A stretch of 31,348 bases of DNA from a virus. The DNA lies in IMG/VR virus record IMGVR_UViG_3300032046_006286, positions 1 through 31,348 of that record, one strand, 5' to 3'. Position numbers and translations under genes: made by a program. Of this stretch, positions 2,652-24,291 are shown piece by piece (positions within the stretch are counted from its first letter, which is position 1; every line of letters starts with the position of its first letter). A model generated the notes under the pieces. That model did not search any database, had not been told where the DNA came from, and saw only the letters and a list, made by a program, of their open reading frames with translations.

Positions 2652-3380
2652 GTGAAGACGATCTCGTGGGACGGCATCGAGATTTACCCCATCAAGCCCT
2701 GGCAGGAATACCAGCGGCTACTGGCGGCGCTGGCGAGCCTGCGCAATGTGCGCGAGCGCCTGGCGCTGTTCATTGGCGAGCAGGGCGTCGGCAAGAGCCT
2801 GGGCGCGACCTACTTTGCCGAGCAGAACCGCCCGGCGGTATATATCGAGGCGCTGCCGGCGGCGGTTAATACCGAGTCGCGGCTGCTGCGGCAGATCGCC
2901 GGCGGGTGCGGCATGAATGACGCGGCGCCGAGCCGCTACGATCTACTCGTGCGCATCGAGGAGCATCTGCGGACCAGCGGCCAGGCGCTCATCATTGACA
3001 ACGCCGAGCGGCTGCGGGCGTACCGCTACCTCGACCTCGTGCGGCACATCCACGACCACGCCGGGGCGCCGATCGCCTTCTGCGGCACGCCGAGCATCGA
3101 GGCGGCGTTTAGCGAGCACCGCGAGCTCGCGGGGCGGGTGGTGCTGCACCGGCAACTGCGGTTGGCGACGGCGGCCGAGATCCGCCCGGCGCTTGAGGAG
3201 TTCAGCGACGAGTTGGCGCAACGCGTCTGGGAGATCACGCGCGGGCGGATGCGCGAGGTCATGGGGCTGCGGTTCAACCTGCTGGCGCTGGCGGCCGAGA
3301 ATAAGATCAAGCCGGGGACTATCGAACCGGAAATCGCGGACAAACTCAGGCAGCAGTTCATGCTGCGGGGGCGAGGGTGA
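2652..3380 (+). CDS. MuB-like AAA+ ATPase (transposition target selection)
   Basis: This 242-aa protein is the likely partner of the transposase. In Mu, MuB binds target DNA as an ATP-dependent filament and activates MuA. It has a Walker A motif G42-EQGVGKS-49 and a Walker B motif ending at D116 (ALIIDNAE), followed by FCGTPSIE, which fits a sensor-1 strand. The GTG start at 2652 is chosen because AGGAGG lies at 2640-2645. Mu B is 312 aa with an N-terminal helix-turn-helix domain. That domain is missing here, and the ATPase begins almost at once. A similar small HTH protein occurs 10 kb downstream at 12715. The family call rests on motifs and on adjacency to the transposase. Confidence 0.88.
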   Translation: MKTISWDGIEIYPIKPWQEYQRLLAALASLRNVRERLALFIGEQGVGKSLGATYFAEQNRPAVYIEALPAAVNTESRLLRQIAGGCGMNDAAPSRYDLLVRIEEHLRTSGQALIIDNAERLRAYRYLDLVRHIHDHAGAPIAFCGTPSIEAAFSEHRELAGRVVLHRQLRLATAAEIRPALEEFSDELAQRVWEITRGRMREVMGLRFNLLALAAENKIKPGTIEPEIADKLRQQFMLRGRG

Positions 3381-6397: not shown

Positions 6398-7480
6398 ATG
6401 AATTGCCTGCGCTGCCATAAGCTGCGCGTCGGCGGGCAGCTCCACGACGAGCTCTACTGCACCGCAAACCGCCCACCAGTCCGCATGTTCATGGAGGACC
6501 TCGGCCGCGGCGATTGCGGGCACGCGCCCGAATCCAAACACCAACTCTGGACCAAGGCCGAGGATGTCTGGCTGCGGCTGAATTACCAGCGGCGCGGCGG
6601 CGTCGAATGCGCCGAGTTCCTCCAACGGTCGCTCCGCATGACCTGCCGCCGCGCGCGGGAATTGGGCTTGGGCAGATGGCGGCGCCGCCTATGGACTGGC
6701 GCCGAGACCGAATATCTGCGCGAGCATTGGCGCGGCGGTGGGGAGGCGCGGAAGCGCGATCTGGCAGCTGATCTGAATCGCACCCCCGGAGCCATCGGCG
6801 CGCAGGCGAGCAAGCTAGGAATCACGCGGCGCAAAAACAGGCGCTGGTCGCTGGCCGAGTTGCGCTATCTGCGCAATCATATCTGGCGCGAATCCCTGAC
6901 TCTCATCGCCCGCGCCCTGGGGCGCACCCGGAGCGCCGTGCAGTTGGTGAAAAGGCGGAGAGGAATACCCGTCCGGCGCTTCTGGACGATGCGGCGCGTG
7001 ATGGAGCTTTTCCGCACTCGGAATGACCATCTTTTCGCCGCCGCGATCGCATCGAAGCGGTTGCCGGCAGTCGCTCGCCGCGACGAGATCGGGCGCATCA
7101 CGTGGCAGGTGCGGCCCAAGCATGTCATGGCGCTCGCGCTCCAATGCGCCCATGAATCGGCGGGTAATGGAAAGCGCGGGAGTTTGTGCTGGTTAACGAT
7201 AGACCCCGCGCGGCTGGATGCGCTGCGGAACGAATGCGATGGCGCGGCCGGCGCCGAGGAGCTATTGGAACGCTTGCGGCATGTGGTTTGCATCCGCGTC
7301 CCAGGTGCGGTGATCAAGGAATCGTATTACATCGCCGAAAAGCTCCGGCTCGCCGGACACCAGGGATCCGTGCCGAGCGGGAAGGATTATCTCCTGACCG
7401 ACGCCCCGCCCGATGCCATCGAGCGTCTGTTCATACCGAAACTTCGCGCGCGGATGCAGATCGCGCGGCACAATGGCTAG
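6398..7480 (+). CDS. Triple SANT/Myb-like DNA-binding regulator
   Basis: This 360-aa protein contains three tandem domains beginning LWTKAEDVWL (W51), LWTGAETEYL (W99) and RWSLAELRYL (W150). Each runs to a recognition-helix-like end (RRARELGL, GAQASKLGI, QLVKRRRGI). The spacing of about 50 residues and the conserved Trp/Glu pattern match SANT/Myb-like or GcrA-like repeats. A possible zinc-binding N-terminus has C3, C6, C21 and C40. The C-terminal half (residues about 195-360) is basic and unassigned. It is probably a transcriptional or middle/late gene regulator sitting just before the morphogenesis genes, where Mu keeps its Mor/C activators. That functional parallel is inference. Confidence 0.72.
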   Translation: MNCLRCHKLRVGGQLHDELYCTANRPPVRMFMEDLGRGDCGHAPESKHQLWTKAEDVWLRLNYQRRGGVECAEFLQRSLRMTCRRARELGLGRWRRRLWTGAETEYLREHWRGGGEARKRDLAADLNRTPGAIGAQASKLGITRRKNRRWSLAELRYLRNHIWRESLTLIARALGRTRSAVQLVKRRRGIPVRRFWTMRRVMELFRTRNDHLFAAAIASKRLPAVARRDEIGRITWQVRPKHVMALALQCAHESAGNGKRGSLCWLTIDPARLDALRNECDGAAGAEELLERLRHVVCIRVPGAVIKESYYIAEKLRLAGHQGSVPSGKDYLLTDAPPDAIERLFIPKLRARMQIARHNG

Positions 7481-7528
7481 CCGGCTTTGCCGCCGCCATC
7501 ACGGCCCCGGAAGGGGTGTTAGCGACCC

Positions 7529-7561
7529 ATGACGCGCATCATCTTGGGCGAGGCGCGAGAG
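7529..7561 (+). repeat. 33-bp perfect direct repeat, copy 1
   Basis: The repeat begins ATGACGCGCATCATCTTGGG and is identical to 7923-7955. The copies are 394 bp apart and flank one ORF (7573-7926). Confidence 0.95.
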
Positions 7562-7576: not shown

Positions 7577-7926
7577 GGTTCCGGCGCGGCATATGCTACG
7601 CGCCCGCGGCGCAAAGTGCGCGGCGCCTGGGACATGCTGCGCGCCGCCTAGAGCGCGAGCGCCAGCGCGCAGGGTTATTCGCCGGCGATGTGCACGAAAC
7701 GCCCCATGGGCGGCTGGCCCGACTGGATGCCGCCCATTGCTCCTGCGTGCGGCGCCTACGCGAGGGCGACGCGGCTGCCTGGATGCGCGCGCGGTGTCTA
7801 CTCGCGGCCATGCCGCAAGCGCAAGCCTCTGCTCTGCGGCGCGAGTGGAACGGCTCGCGCTGGCTCCCAGGTGGGCCGGAGTATCTGCTCGATCTCATTC
7901 GTAGTCGGCAGACGGTGAGAGCATGA
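7573..7926 (+). CDS. Hypothetical 117-aa protein between direct repeats
   Basis: The ATG at 7573 overlaps the short upstream reading as ATGA, and the TGA overlaps the ATG at 7923. The protein is Arg/Ala-rich, with four cysteines (ICYAP, HCSCVRR, ARCLL) and a better-defined C-terminus (ALRREWNGSRWLPGGPEYLL then DLIRSR). It fills a stretch with no other plausible gene and could be an inserted cargo gene. The high Arg content means the frame could still be spurious. Confidence 0.5.
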   Translation: MRFRRGICYAPAAQSARRLGHAARRLERERQRAGLFAGDVHETPHGRLARLDAAHCSCVRRLREGDAAAWMRARCLLAAMPQAQASALRREWNGSRWLPGGPEYLLDLIRSRQTVRA

Positions 7927-7955
7927 CGCGCATCATCTTGGGCGAGGCGCGAGAG
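7923..7955 (+). repeat. 33-bp perfect direct repeat, copy 2
   Basis: It is identical to 7529-7561 and provides the start of the 36-aa ORF. Confidence 0.95.
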
Positions 7956-8033
7956 CCCCCGATCGAGATCAAGGCCGAATACGTGGACATGATTCGCAAG
8001 CGTGTGGGAAAGGCGGGGGAAAATGTGGTATAA
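7923..8033 (+). CDS. Small 36-aa protein
   Basis: It reads MTRIILGEAREPPIEIKAEY and continues to RVGKAGENVV. Its start is the second copy of the 33-bp repeat, and it overlaps the preceding stop as ATGA. The final codons GTG-GTA-TAA coincide with the -10 element of the promoter at 8026-8034. No family is recognised. Confidence 0.45.
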   Translation: MTRIILGEAREPPIEIKAEYVDMIRKRVGKAGENVV

Positions 8034-8034
8034 T
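8026..8034 (+). promoter_or_regulatory. Extended -10 promoter TGGTATAAT
   Basis: A perfect TATAAT at 8029-8034 is preceded by TG at the extended -10 position. No TTGACA-like -35 lies at 16-17 bp spacing (the bases there are GGAAAG or similar), which is usual for extended -10 promoters. The context TGTGGTATAAT is identical to the promoter at 13649-13676. A start near 8041 would put the nested hairpin 8039-8133 at the very 5' end of the transcript. Confidence 0.6.
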
Positions 8035-8038
8035 GGCG

Positions 8039-8133
8039 GCGGAAAAACCAGATAAGGCGCGCGAGATGACCGCAGCGGGACGGCCCCCGGGCAACCGGGG
8101 CCGCTGATCCAACTGCGGTTTTGGCTTTTCCGC
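8039..8133 (+). ncRNA. Nested hairpin leader or small RNA upstream of small terminase
   Basis: Outer arms GCGGAAAA (8039-8046) and TTTTCCGC (8126-8133) pair. CCA/TGG continue after one mismatch, then ACCGCAG (8069-8075) pairs with CTGCGGT (8113-8119). An inner GC-rich stem with AGCGG/CCGCT and CCCC/GGGG ends in a GCAA (GNRA-type) tetraloop. The downstream arm contains GGTTTTGGCTTTT, so the element can act as an intrinsic terminator or attenuator. A 24-codon reading from 8033 crosses it, but the structure suggests RNA function. It lies between a promoter and the terminase genes. Confidence 0.55.
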
Positions 8134-8139
8134 ACCCAA

Positions 8140-8164
8140 CACGGGCAGGAGTGCCCGTGCTCCA
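8140..8164 (-). repeat. GGAG-type hairpin repeat in small terminase leader
   Basis: CACGGGC and GCCCGTG arms followed by GCTCCA. Compared with the copy at 5758, both arms have changed together (A-T to G-C), so pairing is kept. Confidence 0.87.
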
Positions 8165-8201: not shown

Positions 8202-8987
8202 ATGCCGAACCTCGTCACGACCACGATTAGCCTTCCCCCGATCCGCCTCAGCTCGCGCTGCGCGATCTGCGGGATTTGGGAGACCAAGCCCGCCCTCTTC
8301 GACGAGATAAACGAGAAACTCCTCGGCGGGGTTGGACAAACGAAAATCGTCGCCTGGTTGCGCGCGAAGCACAAGTTCCGCACCAATCAGAACTCGCTGA
8401 GCCGCCACCTCAACCGCCACCTCATGCCCTACTTCGAGGACGCGCTGCTGATCGAGCGCACCGCGCTGGCAATCGCGCAGGCGACGGGGAGCCAAAGCAC
8501 GATGTCCCTCGCGGGAGTGATCCTGCGCATCCTGGCATCGAAGATCCACGACGCCCTGGGCGGCCTCGATCTCAAACGGATCAAAAACCTCGATCCGCTG
8601 GACCTGATGAAGGCCGCGACCGCTCTCGCCTCGACCATCGCCTATGCCGACCGCGCCGCCTCCGATTCCGCGCTCAAGGCCGAGGAGTTGGAGCTGCGCA
8701 AGCTGCGCCTAGCGAAGAGCAAAGAGGAGCTGGCGGCGCTGGCCGTGGACTGGCTGCGCAAGCAGCTCGCCGGGCGGCCCGATCTCGTCGAGCACCTGCG
8801 CGCGCAACTGGCGCTGCCGGAACCCGAAATGGAGCACAGGCTTAAGCCTGTGCCTCCAGGGGAGGCTGAACGCAGGCTGAAGCCTGCGGCTCCAGGGAGA
8901 GAGGCGGGCGGGCTCAAGCCCGCCGCTCCAGGGAACGCGGGACACAGGGTTAAGCCTGTGGCTCCACGGGACACGGATGAATCCTGA
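8202..8987 (+). CDS. Putative terminase small subunit (Mu gp27-like position)
   Basis: This 261-aa protein uses the ATG at 8202, with AGAGG at 8188-8192. The in-frame ATG at 8121 is rejected because it lies inside the hairpin element and reads through a repeat. C20/C23 (SRCAICG) precede an HTH-like region (QTKIVAWLRAKHKF, SLSRHLNRHLMPY) that could bind packaging sites. A long helical region with a charged coil follows (residues about 140-200). The last 50 residues are four in-frame copies of a hairpin repeat giving a repeated LKP(V/A)(P/A)PG peptide. It overlaps the large terminase start by 11 bases. The call rests on position and architecture rather than a sure family match. Confidence 0.65.
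   Translation: MPNLVTTTISLPPIRLSSRCAICGIWETKPALFDEINEKLLGGVGQTKIVAWLRAKHKFRTNQNSLSRHLNRHLMPYFEDALLIERTALAIAQATGSQSTMSLAGVILRILASKIHDALGGLDLKRIKNLDPLDLMKAATALASTIAYADRAASDSALKAEELELRKLRLAKSKEELAALAVDWLRKQLAGRPDLVEHLRAQLALPEPEMEHRLKPVPPGEAERRLKPAAPGREAGGLKPAAPGNAGHRVKPVAPRDTDES
8830..8970 (+). repeat. Four GGAG palindromes at exact 36-bp spacing, in frame
   Basis: The palindrome centres CTTAAG, CTGAAG, CTCAAG and GTTAAG lie at 8841, 8877, 8913 and 8949, exactly 36 bp (12 codons) apart. The stems differ (ACAGGC, GCAGGC, GCGGGC and ACAGGG versions) with mostly compensating changes. The array encodes the whole C-terminal tail of the small terminase. Confidence 0.93.
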
Positions 8988-10683
8988 CATCGGTAAGCTG
9001 CTCGATGATCTCACTGCGCCCGGGATCGAGGCGCCGCTCGATTTTTTCGCGGCCCACATCCACCCGCGCCGCAAGCCGTGGTCGCTGGATCGCCACGAAT
9101 ACCTGCGGCAGATCGTCGAGGACCCCGCGCAGCACATCGTCATCGAGAAAGCCGCGCAGCTCGGCGCGAGCACGGTCATGCTCGGGCGCATGATCCTCGC
9201 CTGCCTTCACGCGCGCAAAGTCGGGTATTTCTTGGAGTCCCGGCCCTACATGACGACCTTCGTGCAGGATCGCTTCGACCCCTTGATCGCCGCCGATCGC
9301 GCGCTCGGCCGCGCGGTGGTCGAGGGCCAGCATGAGACGGAGGACATCGCCGGTCGCCGCAAGCGGGCCGATAACGTCCGCCTCAAACACATCGGCCCCG
9401 GCAGCGCGTACTTCTGCGTGACCCAGAAACGCTCGGACATCAAGTCGGTGGACCTCGACCTGGTGATCCTCGACGAGGTCGCCGAGCTCGATCCCGAGCT
9501 CGTGGATTGGGTGGATGATCGCCTGCTGCACAGCGATTACAAGCGGCGCTACGAGTTGTCGCAACCCGATGTGCCCAACTGGGGGATTGACGAGCGCTTC
9601 AGGGAATCCGATCAGAAGTATTGGGCGCTACGCTGCCCGCGCTGCCGGGTGCGCACTATCGTCGAGCTTGAGTTCCCCGCGTGCCTGGCATGGATGGAGG
9701 GCGCGCGACGCATCCCCGCCGGCGACTTCGTGCTCGATGACGGTTGCCGCGGCCTGAGCCCCGATCATTTCCGCATCGTCTGCCCGCGCTGCTTCGCGCG
9801 CCTCGATCCGTCAGCCGGCGAATGGGTCGCCCAAAATCCCGGCGCGCGGATCTCCGGGTATCATCTATCGCAGCTCTATGGCCCCGCAATTGACGCCCCC
9901 GCCATCGCCCGCAAGTGGATCGGCGCCCAGAAGCGCCCGTCGAAGATGGCCAATTTCTACATCTCCTATCTCGGCCTGCCCTATGCCGGCGACCGCCAGC
10001 CGCTGACCGAGGAATTGCTGACCAGCAAGTGCGGCGACTGGCGCATCTCGCCCACCGGCCAGGGCGAGAATCTGCCGACCGGCGTGGCGTTCGCGGGGAT
10101 TGACGTGGGCGACATCTGCCACCTGGTCGTCGCGCGGCGCGGCGATGATGGGAAGTTCCGCGTGTTGTGGGCCGAGAAGACCGGCTCGTGGGCCCTGCTG
10201 GAGAAGCGCCTGCGGGATTATGACGTGCGCATGGCGGTCGTAGATGCCATGCCCTATAAGACTAGCGCCAAGGCATTAGTACGCAGTTTCAAGCGCGCGG
10301 CGATCTCCTATATGACCGGGCAGCAGACGCGTTATGCCATCGAGGACGGCGAGACGGATCCGGTGCACGTCATCAACTGCGACCGCACCGAGGCGAGCGA
10401 CGCCCTGGTGGATGCAATCACCGCCGGCGACCTGCTGCTGCCGCGCGCGAGTGAGCCGGTAGTCCCTGAGATCAAGGCGCATCTGAAAAACCTCATCAAG
10501 GACAAGCGCGCGGACGGCACATTCGCGTACAAGCGCGGCCTCGACGACCATTATGCGCAGGCGCTGATTCGGATGTTGCTGGCGGCCGGCGGCAGCCGCG
10601 CGCTGGGCATCGGTGTCTGCCACCATCTGGGCGGCGCGGATAAATGGATCATCGGCAAAAGCTCGGCCCCGAGGAGATGGTAA
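8977..10683 (+). CDS. Terminase large subunit (GpA/Mu gp28-like)
   Basis: This 568-aa protein is the packaging motor and nuclease that cuts and pumps DNA into the procapsid. The ATPase domain has a deviant Walker A E57-KAAQLGAST-66, like the GpA family, and a Walker B VILDE with D166/E167. A zinc ribbon follows with CPRC at 220-223 and CPRC at 269-272. The nuclease domain starts at GIDVGD (D376), with further acidic candidates in VVDAM and near the C-terminal GLDDHYAQALI. It overlaps the small terminase by 11 bases, and its TAA overlaps the portal ATG (TAATG). The length fits the family. Confidence 0.9.
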   Translation: MNPDIGKLLDDLTAPGIEAPLDFFAAHIHPRRKPWSLDRHEYLRQIVEDPAQHIVIEKAAQLGASTVMLGRMILACLHARKVGYFLESRPYMTTFVQDRFDPLIAADRALGRAVVEGQHETEDIAGRRKRADNVRLKHIGPGSAYFCVTQKRSDIKSVDLDLVILDEVAELDPELVDWVDDRLLHSDYKRRYELSQPDVPNWGIDERFRESDQKYWALRCPRCRVRTIVELEFPACLAWMEGARRIPAGDFVLDDGCRGLSPDHFRIVCPRCFARLDPSAGEWVAQNPGARISGYHLSQLYGPAIDAPAIARKWIGAQKRPSKMANFYISYLGLPYAGDRQPLTEELLTSKCGDWRISPTGQGENLPTGVAFAGIDVGDICHLVVARRGDDGKFRVLWAEKTGSWALLEKRLRDYDVRMAVVDAMPYKTSAKALVRSFKRAAISYMTGQQTRYAIEDGETDPVHVINCDRTEASDALVDAITAGDLLLPRASEPVVPEIKAHLKNLIKDKRADGTFAYKRGLDDHYAQALIRMLLAAGGSRALGIGVCHHLGGADKWIIGKSSAPRRW

Positions 10684-12605
10684 TGCGCATCGGCCCGCTG
10701 GATTTCAGCATCCATAGATTCGCGGAAAAGAAACCTCGGCCGCCCCTGGGCGAGACCGGCACCTCCGGCCTGAATATTTGGCGTGGGCTCGTCGCCGAGG
10801 AATATAATCCCGACCTGCGCGGCCCCGCGGCCTACGAGACCTATGACAAAATGCTGCGCGGGGACGGCCAGGTGCAGGCGGTCGAGCTGGCGATCTGGTT
10901 GCCGATCGGCGCCGCGGCGTGGAGCGTCGAGCCGGGCGACGACAGCGCCGCCTCGCGCGAAGCGGCCGATCTGATTTTGAGCAATCTGTTCGGCGGCATG
11001 ACCATTTCCTTCGCCGAGGTCCTGCGCCACGCGCTGCTCGGCGCGCTGACCGGGGTCGCCCTGCTTGAGCATGTTTGGGAGATCCGCGACGGCCTCGCCG
11101 CCTGGCGCAAGCTCGCGCCGCGCGCACCGAAAAGCATCCGCCAATGGGACATGGACATCGGCGGCGGCGTACAGGGAGTGGTGCAATGGGCGCGCGATGA
11201 GGGCGGCGGGTTTCGGGATGTGCGGATCCCAATCGAGAAGCTGATTCGGTTAACCTGGCGCGGCGATTATGGCAACCCCGAGGGGCGCGCGTTGCTGCGG
11301 CCCGCATACAAGCATTGGTTCACCAAGGACTGGCTCTACAAGTTCGCCAACATCGCGGTCGAGCGCGGAGCCGTCGGCGTGCCCGTCGGCCATCTGCCCG
11401 AGGGCTACAGCAAAACCGACCAGGATGATTTCCTGGATCTGCTCAAGGATTGGAAAGCTTCTGAATCCTCGGCTTTCGCGCTTCCCCCCGGCTATACCAT
11501 CGAGTTGTTGCAGATGCAGGTCCGCAGCCAGGGGTTCATGGCGCTGATCGAGCACCACGACGTTATGATCGCGCGCTCGGTGCTCGCGCAGTTTATCAAC
11601 CTGGGGACTACCGCCAGCGGATCGCGGGCGCTCTCGGAGGGGCAGACTGGGTTTTTCATTCTCGCCCTCAATACCGTCGCCGATTGGTTTGCGGAGCACA
11701 TCAACCGCTACGGCATCCCGCGCTGGTGCGCCTATAACTATCCGGGCCTCAAGGCGCTGCCGACGCTCGGCCATTCGAGCATCGGGACGGTGCTTGATCC
11801 GGGCGGCATCGCCAACGGTTTGGCGCAGCTCTGCGCGGGGCGGCTGCTGACCCCGGATGATGATCTCGAAAACGTGGTGCGCGGCTGGTTCGGGTTGCCC
11901 CCCCTGCCCGAGGAGCATACCCGAGCAACCGAGCAGCCAATAGAACGGCCGGTCGTCGCACATGGAGCACAGCCGCTCTCGGCTGTGGTCCGCGGCTCCA
12001 CCCGCCGGTACGATCCCGAACCGCACTTGGCCGCCGGGCGGCAGATGGCCGCAGACGAGCAGCGCTTCGAGGCGGCAATGGCGGAGGTTGTGACCGACCA
12101 GGAGCAACGGCTGCTCGCCAAGCTGGAGCCAATTATCGCCGATTTCAAGGCGGCGCCGGATGAGGAGAAAGGACGGCAGATTTCGCGGATGCAGGCGGTG
12201 AATGTCCCGCTCGTCGCCAAATATGAAAATCTCCTGCGCGGTTGGCTATGGAGCCTATTCAGCGTCGCCCGCGAGCGCGCGGCCGCCGAGTTCGGCGCCA
12301 AGCCAGGGGCGGTCACGAGCGCGATGCGCCAATGGATCGCCGCCAAAGCCCAGGTGTTGGCGCAGGACCACAGCGAGAAGCTGCGGGCCCAGGTTCTCCA
12401 TGAATTGCTCGATGTCATCCGCCAGGACCTTCCCACCGGCGACATCCTCAAGGTCCTGGGGCAGGCGGCGCGCGGGCGGGCGCGAGTGGATTTGACGGAC
12501 GGTTTGCGCGAGGCCGGCGAGCAACTCATCGAGGTCATCAACAACGCCCTGATCGGCATTCAGACGCGCCCTGGAGCACAGGCGCTCCCGCCTGTGGATG
12601 TATGA
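10683..12605 (+). CDS. Portal protein (DUF935 / Mu gp29-like) with C-terminal extension
   Basis: This 640-aa protein forms the dodecameric DNA channel of the head. The ATG at 10683 is chosen because GAGGAG (10671-10676) sits 6 bases upstream and TAATG couples it to the terminase. Upstream in-frame starts lie inside the terminase gene. DUF935-type features include GDGQVQAVELAIWLPIGAAAW, RPAYKHWFTKDWLYKFAN and QFINLGTTASGSRALSEGQ. After residue about 425 comes a repeat-encoded segment (AHGAQPLSAVV). An all-helical region of some 200 residues follows (e.g. AMRQWIAAKAQVLAQDHSEK), resembling the N-terminal part of Mu-F/SPP1-gp7 proteins. A second repeat supplies the last residues (GAQALPPVDV) and stop. 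Confidence 0.88.
   Translation: MRIGPLDFSIHRFAEKKPRPPLGETGTSGLNIWRGLVAEEYNPDLRGPAAYETYDKMLRGDGQVQAVELAIWLPIGAAAWSVEPGDDSAASREAADLILSNLFGGMTISFAEVLRHALLGALTGVALLEHVWEIRDGLAAWRKLAPRAPKSIRQWDMDIGGGVQGVVQWARDEGGGFRDVRIPIEKLIRLTWRGDYGNPEGRALLRPAYKHWFTKDWLYKFANIAVERGAVGVPVGHLPEGYSKTDQDDFLDLLKDWKASESSAFALPPGYTIELLQMQVRSQGFMALIEHHDVMIARSVLAQFINLGTTASGSRALSEGQTGFFILALNTVADWFAEHINRYGIPRWCAYNYPGLKALPTLGHSSIGTVLDPGGIANGLAQLCAGRLLTPDDDLENVVRGWFGLPPLPEEHTRATEQPIERPVVAHGAQPLSAVVRGSTRRYDPEPHLAAGRQMAADEQRFEAAMAEVVTDQEQRLLAKLEPIIADFKAAPDEEKGRQISRMQAVNVPLVAKYENLLRGWLWSLFSVARERAAAEFGAKPGAVTSAMRQWIAAKAQVLAQDHSEKLRAQVLHELLDVIRQDLPTGDILKVLGQAARGRARVDLTDGLREAGEQLIEVINNALIGIQTRPGAQALPPVDV
11963..12000 (+). repeat. 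GGAG-type hairpin repeat inside portal gene
   Basis: TGGAG, then CACAGCC and GGCTGTG arms around GCTCTC, closed by GCGGCTCCA. It is translated in frame at the boundary between the portal core and its helical C-terminal extension. The stem is the CAGCC version, also found at 18481. Confidence 0.85.
12572..12599 (+). repeat. GGAG-type hairpin repeat forming the portal C-terminus
   Basis: TGGAG with CACAGGC and GCCTGTG arms, read in frame as PGAQALPPVD just before the stop codon. The 109 bases between this gene and the next start hold no other recognisable element. Confidence 0.87.
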
Positions 12606-12714
12606 TGCTTTTTTTGCGCCAGGATGCCCCAGAATCGCTTGAGGGGTACGGAAGTACCAGTCGCGGCCTGAACGCCAGAATTGACCGCTATTGACCGGGG
12701 TCAGGAGCGAAACC

Positions 12715-13104
12715 GTGACGGCGTTGGAAGCCCTGAAACGCGAATCGCGCATGAGTTACCGGCAAATCGCCGATGAGTTGGGCTTGAGTAAGACCCATGT
12801 GCTGGGCCTCATTCGCGGGATTTATCCCTATCCGCAGGATGGCAATGTGCGGCGCATCCGCCGCCTGCTGATCGAGCGCGCGCGCCTCGAACGGTCATCC
12901 GATCCCGACTTCCTCGCCCAGATCCGCCAAGTCGCCGTGCCGTTCCTCCTGGAGCGCATCGTCCTGGAGCACAGGCACTCCTGTCTGTGTCTCCCGATGC
13001 CTGCCCATCCGCGTAAATCCGCGGCCAAGCTTCCCCTCCCACCCCTCCGGTCCCATCTGTGTGAATCTGTGCAATCTGTGGATGGCGTTCCCTCCCATGC
13101 CTGA
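12715..13104 (+). CDS. Small HTH protein, MuB-N-terminal-like, with repeat-derived tail
   Basis: About 129 aa from GTG at 12715, with AGGAG at 12703-12707 (7-base spacing). The upstream TTG at 12691 lacks such a site. Residues about 14-55 (SYRQIADELGLSKTHVLGLI, then RGIYPYPQDGNVRRIRRLL) match the pattern of an HTH followed by G-x-Y and a helix, as in the N-terminal domain of MuB. The final 45 residues are encoded by three kinds of dispersed repeat, so the functional protein may end near residue 83. Its place between portal and the Mu-F-like gene is unusual for a DNA-binding protein. Confidence 0.6.
   Translation: MTALEALKRESRMSYRQIADELGLSKTHVLGLIRGIYPYPQDGNVRRIRRLLIERARLERSSDPDFLAQIRQVAVPFLLERIVLEHRHSCLCLPMPAHPRKSAAKLPLPPLRSHLCESVQSVDGVPSHA
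12965..12989 (+). repeat. GGAG-type hairpin repeat inside HTH gene
   Basis: TGGAG with CACAGGC and a slightly degenerate GTCTGTG arm. It is translated as LEHRHSCLCLP. Confidence 0.82.
13009..13084 (+). repeat. AATCTGTG-type repeat with CCGCG palindrome
   Basis: CCGCGTAAATCCGCGG at 13009-13024 is followed by ATCTGTGTGAATCTGTGCAA and CTGTGGATGG (13054-13084). The second part recurs at 28669-28700, again just before an ATG. Here it lies across the HTH gene end and the start of the Mu-F-like gene. Confidence 0.8.
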
Positions 13105-13648: not shown

Positions 13649-13676
13649 TTGACAATCGCGCTCCCTGTGGTATAAT
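13649..13676 (+). promoter_or_regulatory. Consensus sigma70 promoter
   Basis: A perfect TTGACA (13649-13654) and a perfect TATAAT (13671-13676) are separated by 16 bp, with TGTGGTATAAT adding an extended -10. This is the strongest promoter-like sequence in the window. It begins just after the stop of the upstream gene. Transcription would begin near 13683, directly ahead of the structured element 13754-13828. Confidence 0.85.
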
Positions 13677-13682
13677 AACCGC

Positions 13683-13829
13683 GCAGTCAAATCAAATACT
13701 CGCGGCGCCGCCGGCTGAACGCCTGACCAGAGGGCCGAGCGGTAGTCTGATCTAAAAGCCGAGGAGATCCCGCCCGGGGCGTGGTGAGCATCGCCGCCCC
13801 GGAATCCGGGACAATCTCCGCGGCTTTTC
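13683..13829 (+). ncRNA. Predicted short structured transcript ending in terminator-like hairpin
   Basis: The region from the predicted start to the T-run is about 147 nt with no convincing ORF. Its 3' part (13754-13828) folds on inspection as AAAAGCCG with CGGCTTTT, GGAGAT with ATCTCC, CCCG with CGGG, CCGGGGC with GCCCCGG and GGTGA with TCGCC around a GCA loop. This ends in TTTT and fits an intrinsic terminator, or an attenuator in the leader of the protease-scaffold operon. The 5' half (13683-13753) holds a GCGGCGCCGC palindrome. It could be a free small RNA or a regulated leader, and the sequence alone does not decide. Confidence 0.6.
13754..13828 (+). terminator. Long bidirectional terminator-like hairpin
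   Basis: The perfect outer arms AAAAGCCG and CGGCTTTT enclose a GC-rich nested stem. A-run and T-run symmetry means it could terminate RNA on either strand. It lies 43 bases upstream of the protease ATG at 13871. Confidence 0.7.
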
Positions 13830-13870
13830 GCATTTACTGGAGCGCCCCGATTGCTCGGGGCGAATAGAAG

Positions 13871-15262
13871 ATGACCGAGCGCGAAATCGAACGCAGAGCC
13901 GGCTACGCCTTCAGCGACCTCAACCTCGCCGAGCCAGTCGCCGATCAGCCCTCCCAGCGCTGGCTGCAACTGGTGCCCATCGGCTCGTGGGAGCATTCGG
14001 ATTACGGCCAGCTCGACATCACGCCCGAGCGCATCGCGCGCATGGCCGCAAATTATGCGGCCGGCCTCCCCGGCATTGATCTCCCGGTTGACATCGAGCA
14101 CAACTGGGGCGAGGCGGTCGGCTGGATCCAAAACGTCGAGGCCCGCGCGGATGGCCTGTGGGGCCTGGTGGATTTCAATATCAAGGGACAGCAACTCCTC
14201 GCCGATCGCGCCTACCGCTACATCTCCCCCGAATGGTTCCCCGACTGGAAGGACTCGCGCGATGGGAAGCACTACGAGGACGTGGTGACGAGCATCGCGC
14301 TCACCAACCGCCCGTGGTTCAAGGATTTGCCGGCCATAGTCAACTCCGAATCCGAGCGCGGCCGCACCTACCTGGTGCCCGCCTATCGTTTCCGGTGGGA
14401 GAAGAAGGGTACGGAAATCTGGTATCGCGTGCGCGACCCCGGCGATTTCGATCCCGATACTTTCAGGTCCCTGGATATGCCCGGAGTCAAGGGCATTCGC
14501 ATGGTCATGGGCCGCCTCAAGCCCGAGAATGCCCCCAAGGGCCACGACCCGAAAAGCCTGGTCATCCAGGCCCTGCGGTTCGATCTCGACGAATGGACAA
14601 TGGACAAAGCGAAGGCTTGGGTCGCCAAGCACAAGGATAGGCTGAAAGCATCCGCCCCCGCGGATGAAATTAGTCGCGCCATCCGCGCGGCGGATAGAGG
14701 AGACAATCCCATGCCCGAAGTCCCGAATCCCGATGTCAAGCCCGACCCGGCGCCAAAGCCTGACCCCGGCGCCAGTTCGATCACCATGACCGAGTTCAAT
14801 GCGGTGAAGGCGGAAGCGGCCGCAAGCAAGGCCGCCGCGGAAGCCGCGAACAAGGCGGCCGCCGACGCCAATGCCCGCCTCGATCGCGCGCAGCTGCATG
14901 AGCGCATCGCCGGCCTGCGCTTCGGCGAGAACAAGCAGCGCGTGCTCGCGCCGGCGATGGTCGAGCAGCTCACGGATACCGCCCTGCGGTTCGCCGCCGG
15001 CGATGAGCGCGAGAAGTTCCTGACCGGCATCGCGGGCCTGTCATTCGTCGAATTGGGCGAGCGCGGCGATGGCGGCCACGAGCCGACCGGCGACGCCATC
15101 CAGCGGTTTAGCGAGGCGGTCGCCGCGAAGATCAAGGCCGATCCGAAGCTCCAGTACGCCGATGCCATGCGCCTCGTCGCCGCCGAGAATCCGCAGCTCG
15201 ACGCCGAGCGCGCTCGCGCGATCCGCGGCCAGCAGCCGGTGGTCCGCAGCGCCGCGAAGTAA
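13871..15262 (+). CDS. Mu I-like prohead protease with inserted domain and scaffold
   Basis: This 463-aa protein is the capsid maturation protease and scaffold precursor. The N-terminal part (residues 30-160) fits the Mu I family: VDIEHNWGEAVGWI with H77, and YRYISPEW with S119, the likely catalytic His and Ser. Residues about 164-257 form an extra domain (IWYRVRDPGDFDPDTFRSL, LKPENAPKG, LDEWTMDKAKAWVAKH) not expected in Mu I. Residues about 281-463 are the Ala/Lys-rich, coiled-coil scaffold with its own internal start. The gene follows the promoter and hairpin at 13649-13828. Its stop is followed within 5 bases by the 6 x 29-bp repeat array. Confidence 0.85.
   Translation: MTEREIERRAGYAFSDLNLAEPVADQPSQRWLQLVPIGSWEHSDYGQLDITPERIARMAANYAAGLPGIDLPVDIEHNWGEAVGWIQNVEARADGLWGLVDFNIKGQQLLADRAYRYISPEWFPDWKDSRDGKHYEDVVTSIALTNRPWFKDLPAIVNSESERGRTYLVPAYRFRWEKKGTEIWYRVRDPGDFDPDTFRSLDMPGVKGIRMVMGRLKPENAPKGHDPKSLVIQALRFDLDEWTMDKAKAWVAKHKDRLKASAPADEISRAIRAADRGDNPMPEVPNPDVKPDPAPKPDPGASSITMTEFNAVKAEAAASKAAAEAANKAAADANARLDRAQLHERIAGLRFGENKQRVLAPAMVEQLTDTALRFAAGDEREKFLTGIAGLSFVELGERGDGGHEPTGDAIQRFSEAVAAKIKADPKLQYADAMRLVAAENPQLDAERARAIRGQQPVVRSAAK
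14711..15262 (+). CDS. Nested scaffold protein (Mu Z-like internal start)
   Basis: An in-frame ATG at codon 281 of the protease gene is preceded by AGAGGAGA at 14696-14703, a strong ribosome-binding site. It would yield a 183-aa scaffold (MPEVPNPDVKPDPAPKPDP, then a coiled coil). This mirrors Mu, where gene Z starts inside I and makes the scaffold separately. Translation from this start is predicted from the ribosome-binding site and the Mu parallel. Confidence 0.75.
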   Translation: MPEVPNPDVKPDPAPKPDPGASSITMTEFNAVKAEAAASKAAAEAANKAAADANARLDRAQLHERIAGLRFGENKQRVLAPAMVEQLTDTALRFAAGDEREKFLTGIAGLSFVELGERGDGGHEPTGDAIQRFSEAVAAKIKADPKLQYADAMRLVAAENPQLDAERARAIRGQQPVVRSAAK

Positions 15263-15267
15263 TGTAA

Positions 15268-15441
15268 TGGAGCACGGGCGCTCCCGCCCGTGAATCTGGA
15301 GCGCGGGCGCTCCCGCCCATGAATGTGGAGCGTGGGCACTCCTGCCCGCGAATCTGGAGCGCGGGCACTCATGCCCGCAAATGTGGAGCGCGGGCACTCC
15401 TGCCCGTGAATGTGGAGCGTGGGCACTCCTGCCCGCGACTC
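15268..15441 (+). repeat. Six tandem 29-bp GGAG hairpin repeats
   Basis: Units start at 15268, 15297, 15326, 15355, 15384 and 15413, each 29 bp with the form TGGAGCRYGGGC, a CTCC-type loop, GCCCGYG and AATS. The last unit decays after its stem. Stem bases vary between units while mostly keeping pairing. The array fills the junction between scaffold stop and the next ribosome-binding site (AGAGAGAGG, 15448-15455). Confidence 0.95.
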
Positions 15442-17432: not shown

Positions 17433-17490
17433 TGGAGCGCGGGCACTTCTGCCCGCGAATGTGGAGCACGGGCGCTCCCGCCCGCGAATC
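17433..17490 (+). repeat. Two tandem 29-bp GGAG hairpin repeats before the capsid gene
   Basis: Units at 17433-17461 and 17462-17490 share the 29-bp period and sequence of the 15268 array. The first begins at the base right after the cement-protein stop codon. Confidence 0.94.
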
Positions 17491-17530: not shown

Positions 17531-18475
17531 ATGCCTGAGCCAGGCGAACTTTACCTCGATCTCGATCTGACGAACGTCAGCATCGGGTATCGCAACCCCG
17601 GCTATGTGGCCGAGGGGCTGCTGCCGATCATCGGCGCCCGCGCGAAGTTCGGGAAATACCCGATCTTCGGGTTCGAGCGATTTGGGATTCCGCGCACACT
17701 GCGCGCCCCGCGCACCGCGTCCGAGCGTATTGATTGGACGCTGACTCGCGGCGTCTTCGAGTGCGATGAGCACTCGCTGGAGATGGCGCTCGATGACCAG
17801 GAACGGGATCAGCAGGGCTCCATCAATGCCGAGACGACCACGGTCGGCACCCTGACCGACAACCTCCTGCTTGCGCGCGAGAAGCGCGTCGCCGACCTGG
17901 TGACTGATGACTCGATCATCACCCAGGGCACCACTCTCGTCGGCGCCGACCAGTGGAATGACGTCGCCGGCACCTCGACTCCGGTCGAGAACATCCAGGC
18001 CGCGCACCAGACCATCCTGGAGGCGACCGGCCTGCGGGGCAACACGCTGCTCATTCCTGGGCCGGTCTTCAATGCGCTCGAAACGCACCCCCAGATCCGC
18101 GACTATCTGAGTTTCACCGGCACGGGCGGCACCGATGCCCGGCTGGTGACGCCGCAGATTCTCGCGGTCATCTTCCGCGTGCAGACGGTCCTGATCGCGG
18201 ACACGCTTTACAATGCGGCCAATGAGAACCAGGCCGCGGACCTCGACCCGATCTGGGGCGATAACGTGATTCTCGCGCACGTGGTCGCGGGCCCGGCGCT
18301 CGAAGTCCCGCGCCTCGGCGCGACCATCAACTGGGAGCAGCGCGGAGTGCCGCGCACCATTGACCGCTACCGCGAGGCGCAGATCAAGTCGGATGTCTTC
18401 GTCTGCGCCGAGCATGTAGATGAGGTCATCATGTGCGCGGCCGCCGGCTATCTGATCCAGGATGTGCTGGGCTAA
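17531..18475 (+). CDS. Major capsid protein
   Basis: This 314-aa protein is close in size to Mu T (305 aa). It has the alpha/beta composition of HK97-fold capsid proteins, with an N-terminal extended arm (MPEPGELYLDLDLTNVSIGY), a spine-like region (TDNLLLAREKRVADLVTD), the segment GNTLLIPGPVFNALETHPQI, and the C-terminal REAQIKSDVFVCAEHVDEV typical of capsid ends. It follows the cement gene and precedes connector genes, the standard order. The spacer before it has weak Shine-Dalgarno sequence but the same GCGAAAC-type leader as the cement gene. Hairpins on both sides may set its mRNA level. Confidence 0.85.
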   Translation: MPEPGELYLDLDLTNVSIGYRNPGYVAEGLLPIIGARAKFGKYPIFGFERFGIPRTLRAPRTASERIDWTLTRGVFECDEHSLEMALDDQERDQQGSINAETTTVGTLTDNLLLAREKRVADLVTDDSIITQGTTLVGADQWNDVAGTSTPVENIQAAHQTILEATGLRGNTLLIPGPVFNALETHPQIRDYLSFTGTGGTDARLVTPQILAVIFRVQTVLIADTLYNAANENQAADLDPIWGDNVILAHVVAGPALEVPRLGATINWEQRGVPRTIDRYREAQIKSDVFVCAEHVDEVIMCAAAGYLIQDVLG

Positions 18476-20087: not shown

Positions 20088-20921
20088 ATGCCCGCTCATG
20101 GATTTCTAGGAAACGTCCGCTACGGCGTCGAGGGAACGCCCGGCAGCCGCGTGCTTGAACCAGCCCTGGTGGACATGCCCGATTGGGTGCGCAGCGCCCG
20201 CCGCAATGCCGCGCGCGTCACCAACGAGACCACCGGCGTCGGCTCGCGCGATTCCCAGGGCCAGAACCTGCTCATGCGGCAGCCGGAGCTGGAGGTCGAG
20301 CTCGATGTCGCCGATCCGACGTTCCTGGCGCTCTGCCTCGCCACCGCCGGCGTCCTGCCGTCGCTCACATTCGAGGTCTCGCGCCTCCAGGCCGGCGCCA
20401 CGCTTGCGGAAATCTGGGTGGGTTGCCTGTGCAATTCGCTGCGGATTACCGGCGCCCAGCGCGAGCCGCTCCGCGCCACCGCCCAATTCTGGCCGCTCAC
20501 GGAAGAGTCCGATACCGGCCATGCCTGGGCCGCCCCGGCAGCGCGCCCATTCGGTTTCATCGAGGGGATCATCTCCAGCGGCGGCGAGGTCATCGGATTC
20601 GACATTGACCTCGACCAGGGCCTGATCCGCGATCAGTATATCTCGGTCGCGCCGCCCGCCGATCCCTATGCGCCCAGCTACGTGCTCGTCGGACGCCAGA
20701 GCCTCACCGCGCGCATCCGCAGCGCCTCGATCTATGACATCACCGAAACCGAGAATGTCATTGACGTGACGCTCGTCTTCGACAATGGGATCAACACCCT
20801 GACCATCGCCCTCACCGATGGCATCTACCAGGGCCAGGAAGGCAACATGCCCGCCGATGCCATCCAGGAGTTCGGCATCCCGATCAAGTTCGCCGCTATC
20901 GGCATCAGCAACGGCGCGTAA
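20088..20921 (+). CDS. Tail tube protein
   Basis: This 277-aa protein has a strong ribosome-binding site (AAGGAGAT, 20076-20083). It contains the motifs of phage tail tube proteins: GFLGNVRYGVEGTPGSRVLE at the start, LMRQPELEVELDVADPTFL, PFGFIEGIISSGGEVIGFDI and IYDITETENVIDVTLVFDN. There is no sheath-like gene before it, so it should polymerise as the tube of a non-contractile tail. It is followed by a complete inverted repeat of the ACCACAGAG family. Confidence 0.8.
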   Translation: MPAHGFLGNVRYGVEGTPGSRVLEPALVDMPDWVRSARRNAARVTNETTGVGSRDSQGQNLLMRQPELEVELDVADPTFLALCLATAGVLPSLTFEVSRLQAGATLAEIWVGCLCNSLRITGAQREPLRATAQFWPLTEESDTGHAWAAPAARPFGFIEGIISSGGEVIGFDIDLDQGLIRDQYISVAPPADPYAPSYVLVGRQSLTARIRSASIYDITETENVIDVTLVFDNGINTLTIALTDGIYQGQEGNMPADAIQEFGIPIKFAAIGISNGA

Positions 20922-21615: not shown

Positions 21616-24291
21616 ATGCCCGAAGAAACCCTCGATATAGTAGTCCGCGCGAAAGACCAAGCGTCCGCCGCCCTGCAAAATGTCCAGCAGGGCATCCAGG
21701 GCGTCAAGCAGGCGGCGGTCAGCGCCACCGATGCCGTCCGCGCGCAGCAAATCAAAACCCTCCAGGGCGCCCTCGCCGATCCCACGGGTTTGAGCCGGAA
21801 AACGCGGCAGATGGCCGAGGAAACGCTCCACCACCTCGGCGCTCTCGTGCCCAAGGCACTCCCCGCGCCTAAAATCCCGGCGATCAAAATGCCGGTGTTG
21901 CCGCCACTCAAGCCGCCCGAGTTCAAGCCTCCCACCATCAGGGCGCCGCGCATCCAGCCGCTCGATATGCGGCCCGTCACCCAGCCCTTGGCAAACTTCC
22001 AGCCTCACGTCGCCCGCATTAATCTCCTCGGCGCCGGCATCCTCGCCCTGCAAGGCCCGCTGGGCGTGGTGGCGGGCTTGTTTCAGGGCTTGGGATCGGT
22101 CGCCGGGAATGTCCTCCGTTCCATCATCTCGGGCGTCATGAGGCTCGCCCAGGCGATTCTGTCGCTGGCCCTCGACGCCCTGCATAAGCTGACCCTCGCC
22201 TTTGGCGCGGCCGCCGCGGCCGCCGCCGCCCTCGTCGCGGTCGTCCTTAAGCTCGGCTTCTCTTACATTGGCTTCGCCAATGAGCAAAAAAATGCCCTGA
22301 CGGTCATGCTCGGTTCCCGCCGCGCCGCCGAGGGTCTTTATAACTGGATGGAAAAGCTAGCGGGATCCCTGCGCATTGACCCCAGGCCGCTGATTGAGGC
22401 CGGTCGGAAAATGGTCGCCTTCGGCATCAATGTCAAACAAACCCTGCCCTGGGCCCTCGATCTCGCCGCCGCCATGAAGGAGCCGATCGCAGGAGTCGCG
22501 GAGATGCTCGGGCGGGTCGAGATGGAGCAGGCGCTGATGCGCAGCCTCGCCGGCATGGGCATCGGCAAAAAGCGCCTGATGGAGGTCGGCGTCCAATTCA
22601 AGGGCGAGCAGATCGTCAACCGCGCGCAACTCATGGCGGGCCTCAAAGCCATCGTCACCCGCGATTTCCCCAACATGGCCGCGCAGGGACGGAGCGAATT
22701 GGCGCGGATTTGGCAGCAGATCAAAACCAACATCACCGAGGCCGCCGCCGAGATTTCCGCCGGCCCTTATCGCGTCCTTCAGGGCGCCGGCGATAAACTC
22801 CTCACCAGTTGGGAAAACCTGCGGAAGTCCGACGCCTGGACTCGCATCAAAGACCGCGCCGGCGGCGCGCTCGCCTGGATCGCGCAACAGATCACCGCCC
22901 TGATCGGCGGCGCGCCGCAGCTCCTCTCCTGGTTCGCGCGGATATTCGATGCCGCGCCCATCGAGGAGTTTTTGGGGATGATCAAGGGCGTCGCCGATTT
23001 CCTGCGCGGCGAGCTGCCCAAGGCCGCCCAGCGCGCGGGGGCGATCATCAGCGGCCACATGCGCGCCTCGGGCATTGATACGAGCAATGTTTGGCAGGCC
23101 GTGGGGACCTTCATCGTCAAGGCCATCGCCGGGGCCGAAGCCGGGCTCTTCGCATTCGCCGAGGAATGGCCCAAGGTCTTCGCGTGGATCAAACGCATCG
23201 CCAGTGATTTCGTGGCCAGCCTGCGCGCAACATTTGATACCCTGCTCATCTTCTTCGATGACCTCGGCAGCTCCATCGCCGAGATCCATGCCCTCATTCT
23301 CCGCATCGCCGGCGCCATCAACATCACGAGCACGGCCGCGATCGCTCTTTATAAAATTAGGAACCCGCTACAATTCGGTGGGGTTCGCGTCTTCAAGGAA
23401 GTCACCGCTGATATTAGGGAGGCGATCGCCACCAATGCGCGCTGGACAAAAGAGGCCGGCGCGCTCTGGCGCGGCGGGTACAAAGAGCGGCGGCGAATGG
23501 AGCAGCGCCCGCCCGCCGAGAAGGCTTATGAGGAATATGTCGCCCGCCCGCAATACGACGCCCGCCGCGCCGAGCAGCTCTATCAGGCGATGATCCGCGA
23601 ATCCAAGGCCAAACGGAAGGACGACGAGGGCATCGCTCCCTGGACTGCCGTCACCACCACCGTTGCCGCCGCGGTCGCGGCATTCAAGGCCACCAAGTTC
23701 GTCATGCCGCGCGTCCAACTGCCCCCGCCCATCCAGCCCGAGCGGATCGAGGATGCCGCACGCGGCGGCACCCACACCGGCGTCGTCGAGGGTATGGCCT
23801 CCATCGCCGACGATTTTGTGACCAAGGTTTGGGGCGCGAGCGCCGAAATGCTCAAACGGGCCGGCGTCAGCCCCATGTGGCTCGAATCTATCGGCGTCCA
23901 TACTGGAGCACGGGCACTCCTGCCCGCGCCCGCCGCCCTCCCTGGAGCACAGCCCGCAACTGGAGCACAGGCACTCATGCCTGTGGGCGCCAAGAAGGCC
24001 GAGGCCCTCCCTGGAGCACAGGCACTCCTGCCTGTGGGTGGGGTCCCTCCCGCCGAGCCCCCATCTTTCGCCGAGCGCATCTGGCGCGGCATGAGTACCA
24101 TGTTCCCCGCCGCCCCGCGCCTCGCCCCCGCCGCCGCCGGCGCCGGACCACCGATCCACGTCAACCTCGGCGGCCTCACCGTCAATTCCCAGGCCGATCT
24201 CGCGGGCGCCCTCAAATCTCCCGCCGCCAAGCGCGACTTCGAGCGCGCCCTCGAAAGTTTCCTCGGCGACTGGCTGCGGAGATATCGCTAG
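21616..24291 (+). CDS. Tail tape measure protein
   Basis: This 891-aa protein sets tail length. It starts with LDIVVRAKDQASAALQNVQQ, which is typical of tape measures. A hydrophobic, glycine/alanine-rich stretch follows at residues about 139-222 (including AFGAAAAAAAALVAVVLKLG) and then long helical regions. By the usual 0.15 nm per residue the tail would be roughly 130 nm, an estimate only. Residues about 763-807 (GARALLPAPAALPGAQPATG, GAQALMPVG, GAQALLPVG) are encoded by hairpin repeats. Its TAG overlaps the next GTG start. Confidence 0.88.
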   Translation: MPEETLDIVVRAKDQASAALQNVQQGIQGVKQAAVSATDAVRAQQIKTLQGALADPTGLSRKTRQMAEETLHHLGALVPKALPAPKIPAIKMPVLPPLKPPEFKPPTIRAPRIQPLDMRPVTQPLANFQPHVARINLLGAGILALQGPLGVVAGLFQGLGSVAGNVLRSIISGVMRLAQAILSLALDALHKLTLAFGAAAAAAAALVAVVLKLGFSYIGFANEQKNALTVMLGSRRAAEGLYNWMEKLAGSLRIDPRPLIEAGRKMVAFGINVKQTLPWALDLAAAMKEPIAGVAEMLGRVEMEQALMRSLAGMGIGKKRLMEVGVQFKGEQIVNRAQLMAGLKAIVTRDFPNMAAQGRSELARIWQQIKTNITEAAAEISAGPYRVLQGAGDKLLTSWENLRKSDAWTRIKDRAGGALAWIAQQITALIGGAPQLLSWFARIFDAAPIEEFLGMIKGVADFLRGELPKAAQRAGAIISGHMRASGIDTSNVWQAVGTFIVKAIAGAEAGLFAFAEEWPKVFAWIKRIASDFVASLRATFDTLLIFFDDLGSSIAEIHALILRIAGAINITSTAAIALYKIRNPLQFGGVRVFKEVTADIREAIATNARWTKEAGALWRGGYKERRRMEQRPPAEKAYEEYVARPQYDARRAEQLYQAMIRESKAKRKDDEGIAPWTAVTTTVAAAVAAFKATKFVMPRVQLPPPIQPERIEDAARGGTHTGVVEGMASIADDFVTKVWGASAEMLKRAGVSPMWLESIGVHTGARALLPAPAALPGAQPATGAQALMPVGAKKAEALPGAQALLPVGGVPPAEPPSFAERIWRGMSTMFPAAPRLAPAAAGAGPPIHVNLGGLTVNSQADLAGALKSPAAKRDFERALESFLGDWLRRYR
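23904..24037 (+). repeat. GGAG-type hairpin repeats inside the tape measure gene
   Basis: Full copies at 23904-23928, 23961-23987 and 24012-24037 and a truncated one at 23943-23952 share TGGAGCAC heads. All are in the same reading frame, giving repeated GA(R/Q)AL(L/M)PxG peptides. Confidence 0.9.

Follow-up and report, generated by a model that had tools for sequence, protein, structure and literature searches.

Most of what is known about late gene expression in transposable phages comes from Mu, whose weak late promoters are switched on by an activator. The Mu C protein, binding a dyad element, activates weak, non-consensus late promoters that include those of lys and I, and the lys and I promoters have a 10-bp match in common (PMC4461284). 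In phage lambda the late promoter PR' is followed by the terminator tR', and a construct terminates ~116 nt after the start (PMC4604602). With Xp10 P7, polymerase bypasses terminators located before the late genes (PMC6624301).

Here we analysed a record of 31,348 bases from an uncultured, Mu-like virus in IMG/VR (the window, taken at its full length), which begins inside a Mu-like genome and is possibly a fragment. Two stretches, referred to as module 1 and module 2, each precede a block of late genes. The features that bear on them are given by position, with the strand where it was assigned.

1-2406: MuA transposase
2652-3380: MuB
6398-7480, plus strand: D5-like regulator (phrog_323)
8024-8034, plus strand: module 1 extended -10, TGTGGTATAAT, overlapping the final codons of a predicted ORF of 36 aa (7923-8033)
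8041-8129, plus strand: predicted module 1 leader RNA of ~89 nt, placed from the -10 position (start 7 nt after the -10) and the T-run
8070-8118, plus strand: module 1 terminator-type hairpin CCGCAG..GCAA..CTGCGG with a GCAA tetraloop, -34.7 kcal/mol, terminator score 15.7
8119-8129, plus strand: module 1 interrupted T-tract, TTTTGGCTTTT
8202-8987, plus strand: candidate terminase small subunit, by position only, opening the block 3' of module 1
8977-10683, plus strand: terminase large subunit (phrog_675, GpA_ATPase)
10644-12605: Mu-type portal
13649-13676, plus strand: module 2 promoter, TTGACA-N16-TATAAT with extended -10 TGTGG
13683-13828, plus strand: predicted module 2 leader RNA of ~146 nt
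13758-13828, plus strand: module 2 terminator-type hairpin followed by TTTT, bidirectional (score 5.0 on the plus strand, 1.5 on the minus strand)
13871-15262, plus strand: Mu-like protease I / scaffold, opening the capsid block
17531-18475: major capsid

Family searches with the 8202-8987 reading frame returned no match. Within the late block, a small helix-turn-helix-like protein (12691-13104) lies between the portal and an F-like gene, these being weak matches.

The sequence TGTGGTATAAT is a consensus extended -10 present in exactly two copies in the whole record, at 8024-8034 and 13666-13676. When one mismatch was allowed, no other copy was detected elsewhere in the record and shuffled sequence contained 0.00 copies. 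An earlier note had placed this promoter motif at 8026; the motif itself is real and its start lies at 8024. In module 2 the element is preceded, 16 bases upstream, by a perfect -35 (TTGACA), and module 1 has no recognisable -35. Across both strands of the whole record only two promoter-like sites scored at least 12 (13671 and 8029), and the same score detected no further strong promoter between either module and its late block.

These promoters could in principle be of the Mu type, with Plys- and PI-like late promoters dependent on a C-type activator and the hairpins being incidental structures at the 5' ends of the mRNAs. We regard this as highly unlikely, because the -10 elements are consensus and both hexamers of module 2 are perfect, whereas Mu late promoters are non-consensus (PMC4461284). 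The regions upstream of the two promoters also share no sequence, local alignment between them being at background, and the Mor/C activator family (PF08765) was not found in the record, from which the left end is missing. What speaks for activation is that the positions of the modules match those of the Mu lys and I promoters (PMC4461284), and that an activated promoter might lack a -35 as module 1 does.

The -10 of module 1 is followed in turn by CCGCAGCGGGACGGCCCCCGGGCAACCGGGGCCGCTGATCCAACTGCGG, a nested, GCAA-looped hairpin and TTTTGGCTTTTCCGC. The nested hairpin with a GCAA tetraloop after the promoter motif had been described before and is genuine (8070-8118), and the module ends were also given correctly, as GGCTTTTCCGC at 8123-8133 and GGCTTTTCGC at 13822-13831. 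For the predicted transcript region, 8040-8133, the folding energy is -47.8 kcal/mol (z -4.2, or -4.8 for a longer cut), and the predicted 5' end CGGAAAAaCCA (8040-8050) can pair with TGGcTTTTCCG in the tail (8122-8132). In the RNA of module 2, the terminator stem is long and nearly perfect, and a second hairpin lies upstream. In both modules the T-runs are short (TTTTGGCTTTT in module 1, TTTTCGCATTT in module 2). When 1042 windows, each 95 nt long, were scanned for folding, the modules ranked fourth and seventh, and several of the remaining outlier windows coincide with the repeats listed below. The module 1 hairpin also contains a 13-codon ORF (ATG..TGA, 8066-8107), probably by chance.

To score terminators, each T-run following a closed hairpin was evaluated with a formula of the d'Aubenton-Carafa type. 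On the plus strand of the 31 kb only 8119 (15.7) and 13825 (5.0) gave positive scores, and the single positive site on the minus strand is the reverse of the module 2 terminator. With a GC-rich hairpin directly before a T-run and a positive score, both modules are thus predicted to contain intrinsic terminators. Shuffled sequences held 0.49 terminator-like sites per plus strand, and 9 of 100 held at least two; two sites arise often enough that the terminators alone are only mildly unusual and not decisive. What argues most strongly for the modules being units is their co-location. In each module the terminator lies ~85-150 nt downstream of the promoter, and the chance under random placement that both of the sole strong promoters would have the sole plus-strand terminators 40-160 nt downstream is ~3e-5. 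The proposal that a promoter-then-hairpin unit stands before each morphogenesis block is thereby borne out, the terminator scores being positive and the co-location far beyond chance.

The same numbers bear on whether module 1 is an accident, with the TATAAT simply closing a small ORF (..Asn-Val-Val-stop) and the hairpin being one of many stable structures. TATAAT does occur five times in the record, counting both strands, and other windows contain comparable folds; however, the 11-mer is missing from shuffles and the pairing of promoter with terminator twice over is very improbable, making this explanation scarcely credible.

Repeats are distributed through the record. A REP-like palindrome, TGGAGCACGGGCACTCCTGCCCGTG, is present with its variants in some 20 copies, some within ORFs (8139-8164, 15266-15441, 17433-17490, 12570, 12963, 18602, 23902, 23959, 24010 and others). 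Some copies are arranged in two tandem arrays that repeat every 29 nt, and one lies in the gap after module 1, ahead of the following gene. Its consensus was found once in GTDB genomes, in an Acidobacteriaceae MAG, and this single copy is too weak to name Acidobacteriaceae as the host. A second repeat family, ACCACAGAGGGCACGGAGAGCACAGAGA, occurs at 240, 1911, 20926 and 26524, with the copies at 20911 and 26521 in strongly folding stretches (z < -5). There is also an exact 34-bp direct repeat (7528-7561 and 7922-7955), each copy of which starts a small ORF, MTRIILGEARE; the 36-aa ORF begun by the second copy ends within the module 1 -10 box.

The earlier note had further suggested that the modules share a regulatory RNA design. 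This part was not supported. Local alignment of the module bodies gave a score of 9.0 against a background of 9.6 for random stretches of the same record, and a single RNA family covering both was rejected. Apart from an 8-mer match due to chance, the two have in common only the -10 element and an 8-base tail (GGCTTTTC). The RNAs differ in sequence, length and shape, and the pairing between 5' and 3' ends in module 1 is missing from module 2. Since the likeness is confined to the -10 and the tail, the best reading is that both modules converged on the host consensus for promoters and for terminators, laid out in the same order twice. The modules thus appear to be two independent promoter-plus-terminator units and not copies of one RNA.

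It is improbable, in our judgement, that the modules are instead two phage small-RNA genes whose products act in trans or on phage proteins, with the late genes transcribed from elsewhere. The anatomy would be exactly right (promoter, structured RNA, terminator), and the module 1 RNA closes 5' to 3'; yet the two RNAs do not resemble each other, their positions coincide exactly with late-block borders, and no module RNA scored above the gathering cut-off of any Rfam 15 covariance model. A match to ar45 fell far under its cut-off and was set aside. The terminase neighbour also prompted the idea of a packaging-motor RNA like the phi29 pRNA, which no test supported. Scanning IMG/VR for TGTGGTATAAT with GGCTTTTC 75-105 nt later returned 25 matches, mostly from one unrelated low-GC locus resembling a small RNA, and none was seen to resemble the modules of this record. 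A like anatomy in an unrelated sRNA-like locus does lend the small-RNA explanation some support: in the contig L140 (6925-7043) and about a dozen similar low-GC isolate contigs, a conserved TGTGGTATAAT is followed by a structured stretch and GGAAAAGCC..GGGCTTTTCTTTT, with 119 nt from TGTGGTATAAT to GGGCTTTTCTTTT. This locus resembles a small-RNA gene and is unrelated to the record.

Single-protein queries with the terminase, portal and capsid against IMG/VR, GTDB genomes and phage records identified no close relatives. A search based on a Mu-like capsid alignment recovered 502 relatives (best 33% identity). A recognisable protease was present in 76 loci. Many of these loci have a gap of 100-300 nt before the protease, and in about a dozen of the 76 this gap contains a terminator-like hairpin. 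In one distant Mu-like contig, L090, TTGACA-N18-CAGAAT is followed by a terminator whose end lies 61 nt short of the protease gene, the same order as in the record. Rhizobium phage RR1-B and Rhodobacter phage RcWaterboi have near-identical terminators before the first late block and ~50 nt before the protease, the non-coding gap lying mostly 5' of the pre-protease terminator. One terminator sequence is present three times in RR1-B (2924-2946, 10388-10410 and 22502-22524), and one near-identical to it twice in RcWaterboi (2147-2168 and 10410-10431), in each case at late-block borders. The similar terminators of L060, L061 and L066 were rejected as the same unit and are instead the ends of upstream operons.

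The earlier note had proposed looking for the motif in other Mu-like phages, and the answer is divided: the order recurs in the distant L090, but the closest IMG/VR relatives (L060 and L061) have no promoter-terminator unit before the protease, nor do Mu-like prophages in 398 Acidobacteriaceae genomes, which are not closer. The arrangement is recurrent among Mu-like loci, not general.

In another account the modules would be ordinary operon boundaries: the hairpins end upstream transcription, the promoters restart it, and a weak terminator leaks, with no dedicated factor. Terminators stand at operon ends before late blocks in many Mu-like phages, and short T-runs, moderate terminator scores and a bidirectional terminator in module 2 would all suit such a role. 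The order of elements does not. In both modules the promoter lies 5' of the hairpin, so that the hairpin would curb transcription from a late promoter of the phage itself; the sensible order, terminator and then promoter-like sequence, is found instead in two other loci, L069 and L080. We consider ordinary boundaries unlikely, though the likeliest of the rival readings.

Taken together, the observations lead us to favour, with a probability of roughly 0.45, a reading in which the late blocks are held behind promoter-proximal terminators and read by controlled read-through. Directly visible in the DNA are the promoter motifs, the hairpins, the T-runs, their order and uniqueness, and the lack of any further strong promoter before the blocks. 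Each module would comprise a strong host-type (sigma70/sigmaA) promoter with an intrinsic terminator 85-150 nt later. Polymerase would start at ~8041 and ~13683, yielding structured leaders of ~90 and ~150 nt, and would mostly halt at the hairpin and T-run. The terminase-portal and protease-capsid blocks would then be transcribed by read-through alone, which a phage factor acting on polymerase, the most likely form of control, may increase late in infection. Both blocks would thereby be switched on together, remaining silent in the lysogen even though the promoters need no activator. A fully consensus promoter before the capsid genes of a phage of temperate type needs some other brake, and the predicted terminator, 150 nt farther on, provides it.

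Several points weigh against read-through control: the T-runs are short, module 2 scores only 5.0 and module 1 lacks a -35. To these are added the absence of the unit from L060, L061 and the Acidobacteriota prophages, the reversed order in L069 and L080, the failure of the PF03589 search to find an antiterminator and the restriction of the 5'-3' pairing to module 1.

Controlled read-through would probably involve a dedicated antiterminator serving both modules. A search of the record with the antiterminator profile PF03589 found no Antiterm-family protein; many antiterminators are not recognisable from sequence. The modules contain no boxA-like sites, which are rarer across the record than expected by chance. 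The D5-like protein (6398-7480) occupies the place of Mu C and is a candidate late regulator, a guess from its position. A bolder version, which we hold to be rather unlikely, is that Mu-type control by the C activator has been replaced by parallel antitermination, in which a single factor of the phage, perhaps the D5-like protein, opens two unrelated terminators behind two constitutive promoters and so couples packaging to capsid synthesis.

Looking forward, the order of promoter, terminator and then protease within ~60 nt offers a signature to look for in other Mu-like phages. As in Mu, where Plys and PI hold the corresponding places, the modules precede a block containing the terminase and the protease I gene; they differ from the Mu promoters in having a consensus -10 twice, a terminator-like hairpin downstream and no shared upstream dyad. 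Intrinsic terminators ahead of late blocks are likewise found in Xp10, an unrelated phage. The HK022 put RNAs are paired hairpins that are mutually similar. Like put, the structured RNAs of the modules lie just 3' of a promoter and could themselves affect termination, but the two are unrelated to one another in sequence and shape. The arrangement of lambda pR'-tR', controlled by Q antitermination, differs in being one unit where the record has two separate ones, and no PF03589 antiterminator was found here. By prediction, the record otherwise has the layout of pR'-tR': a strong sigma70 promoter, a short leader, an intrinsic terminator and the late genes beyond. The pair of units is therefore predicted to be a variation on an already known phage design for late control; if the read-through reading is true, a Mu-like genome would run its late switch the lambda way, twice in parallel.
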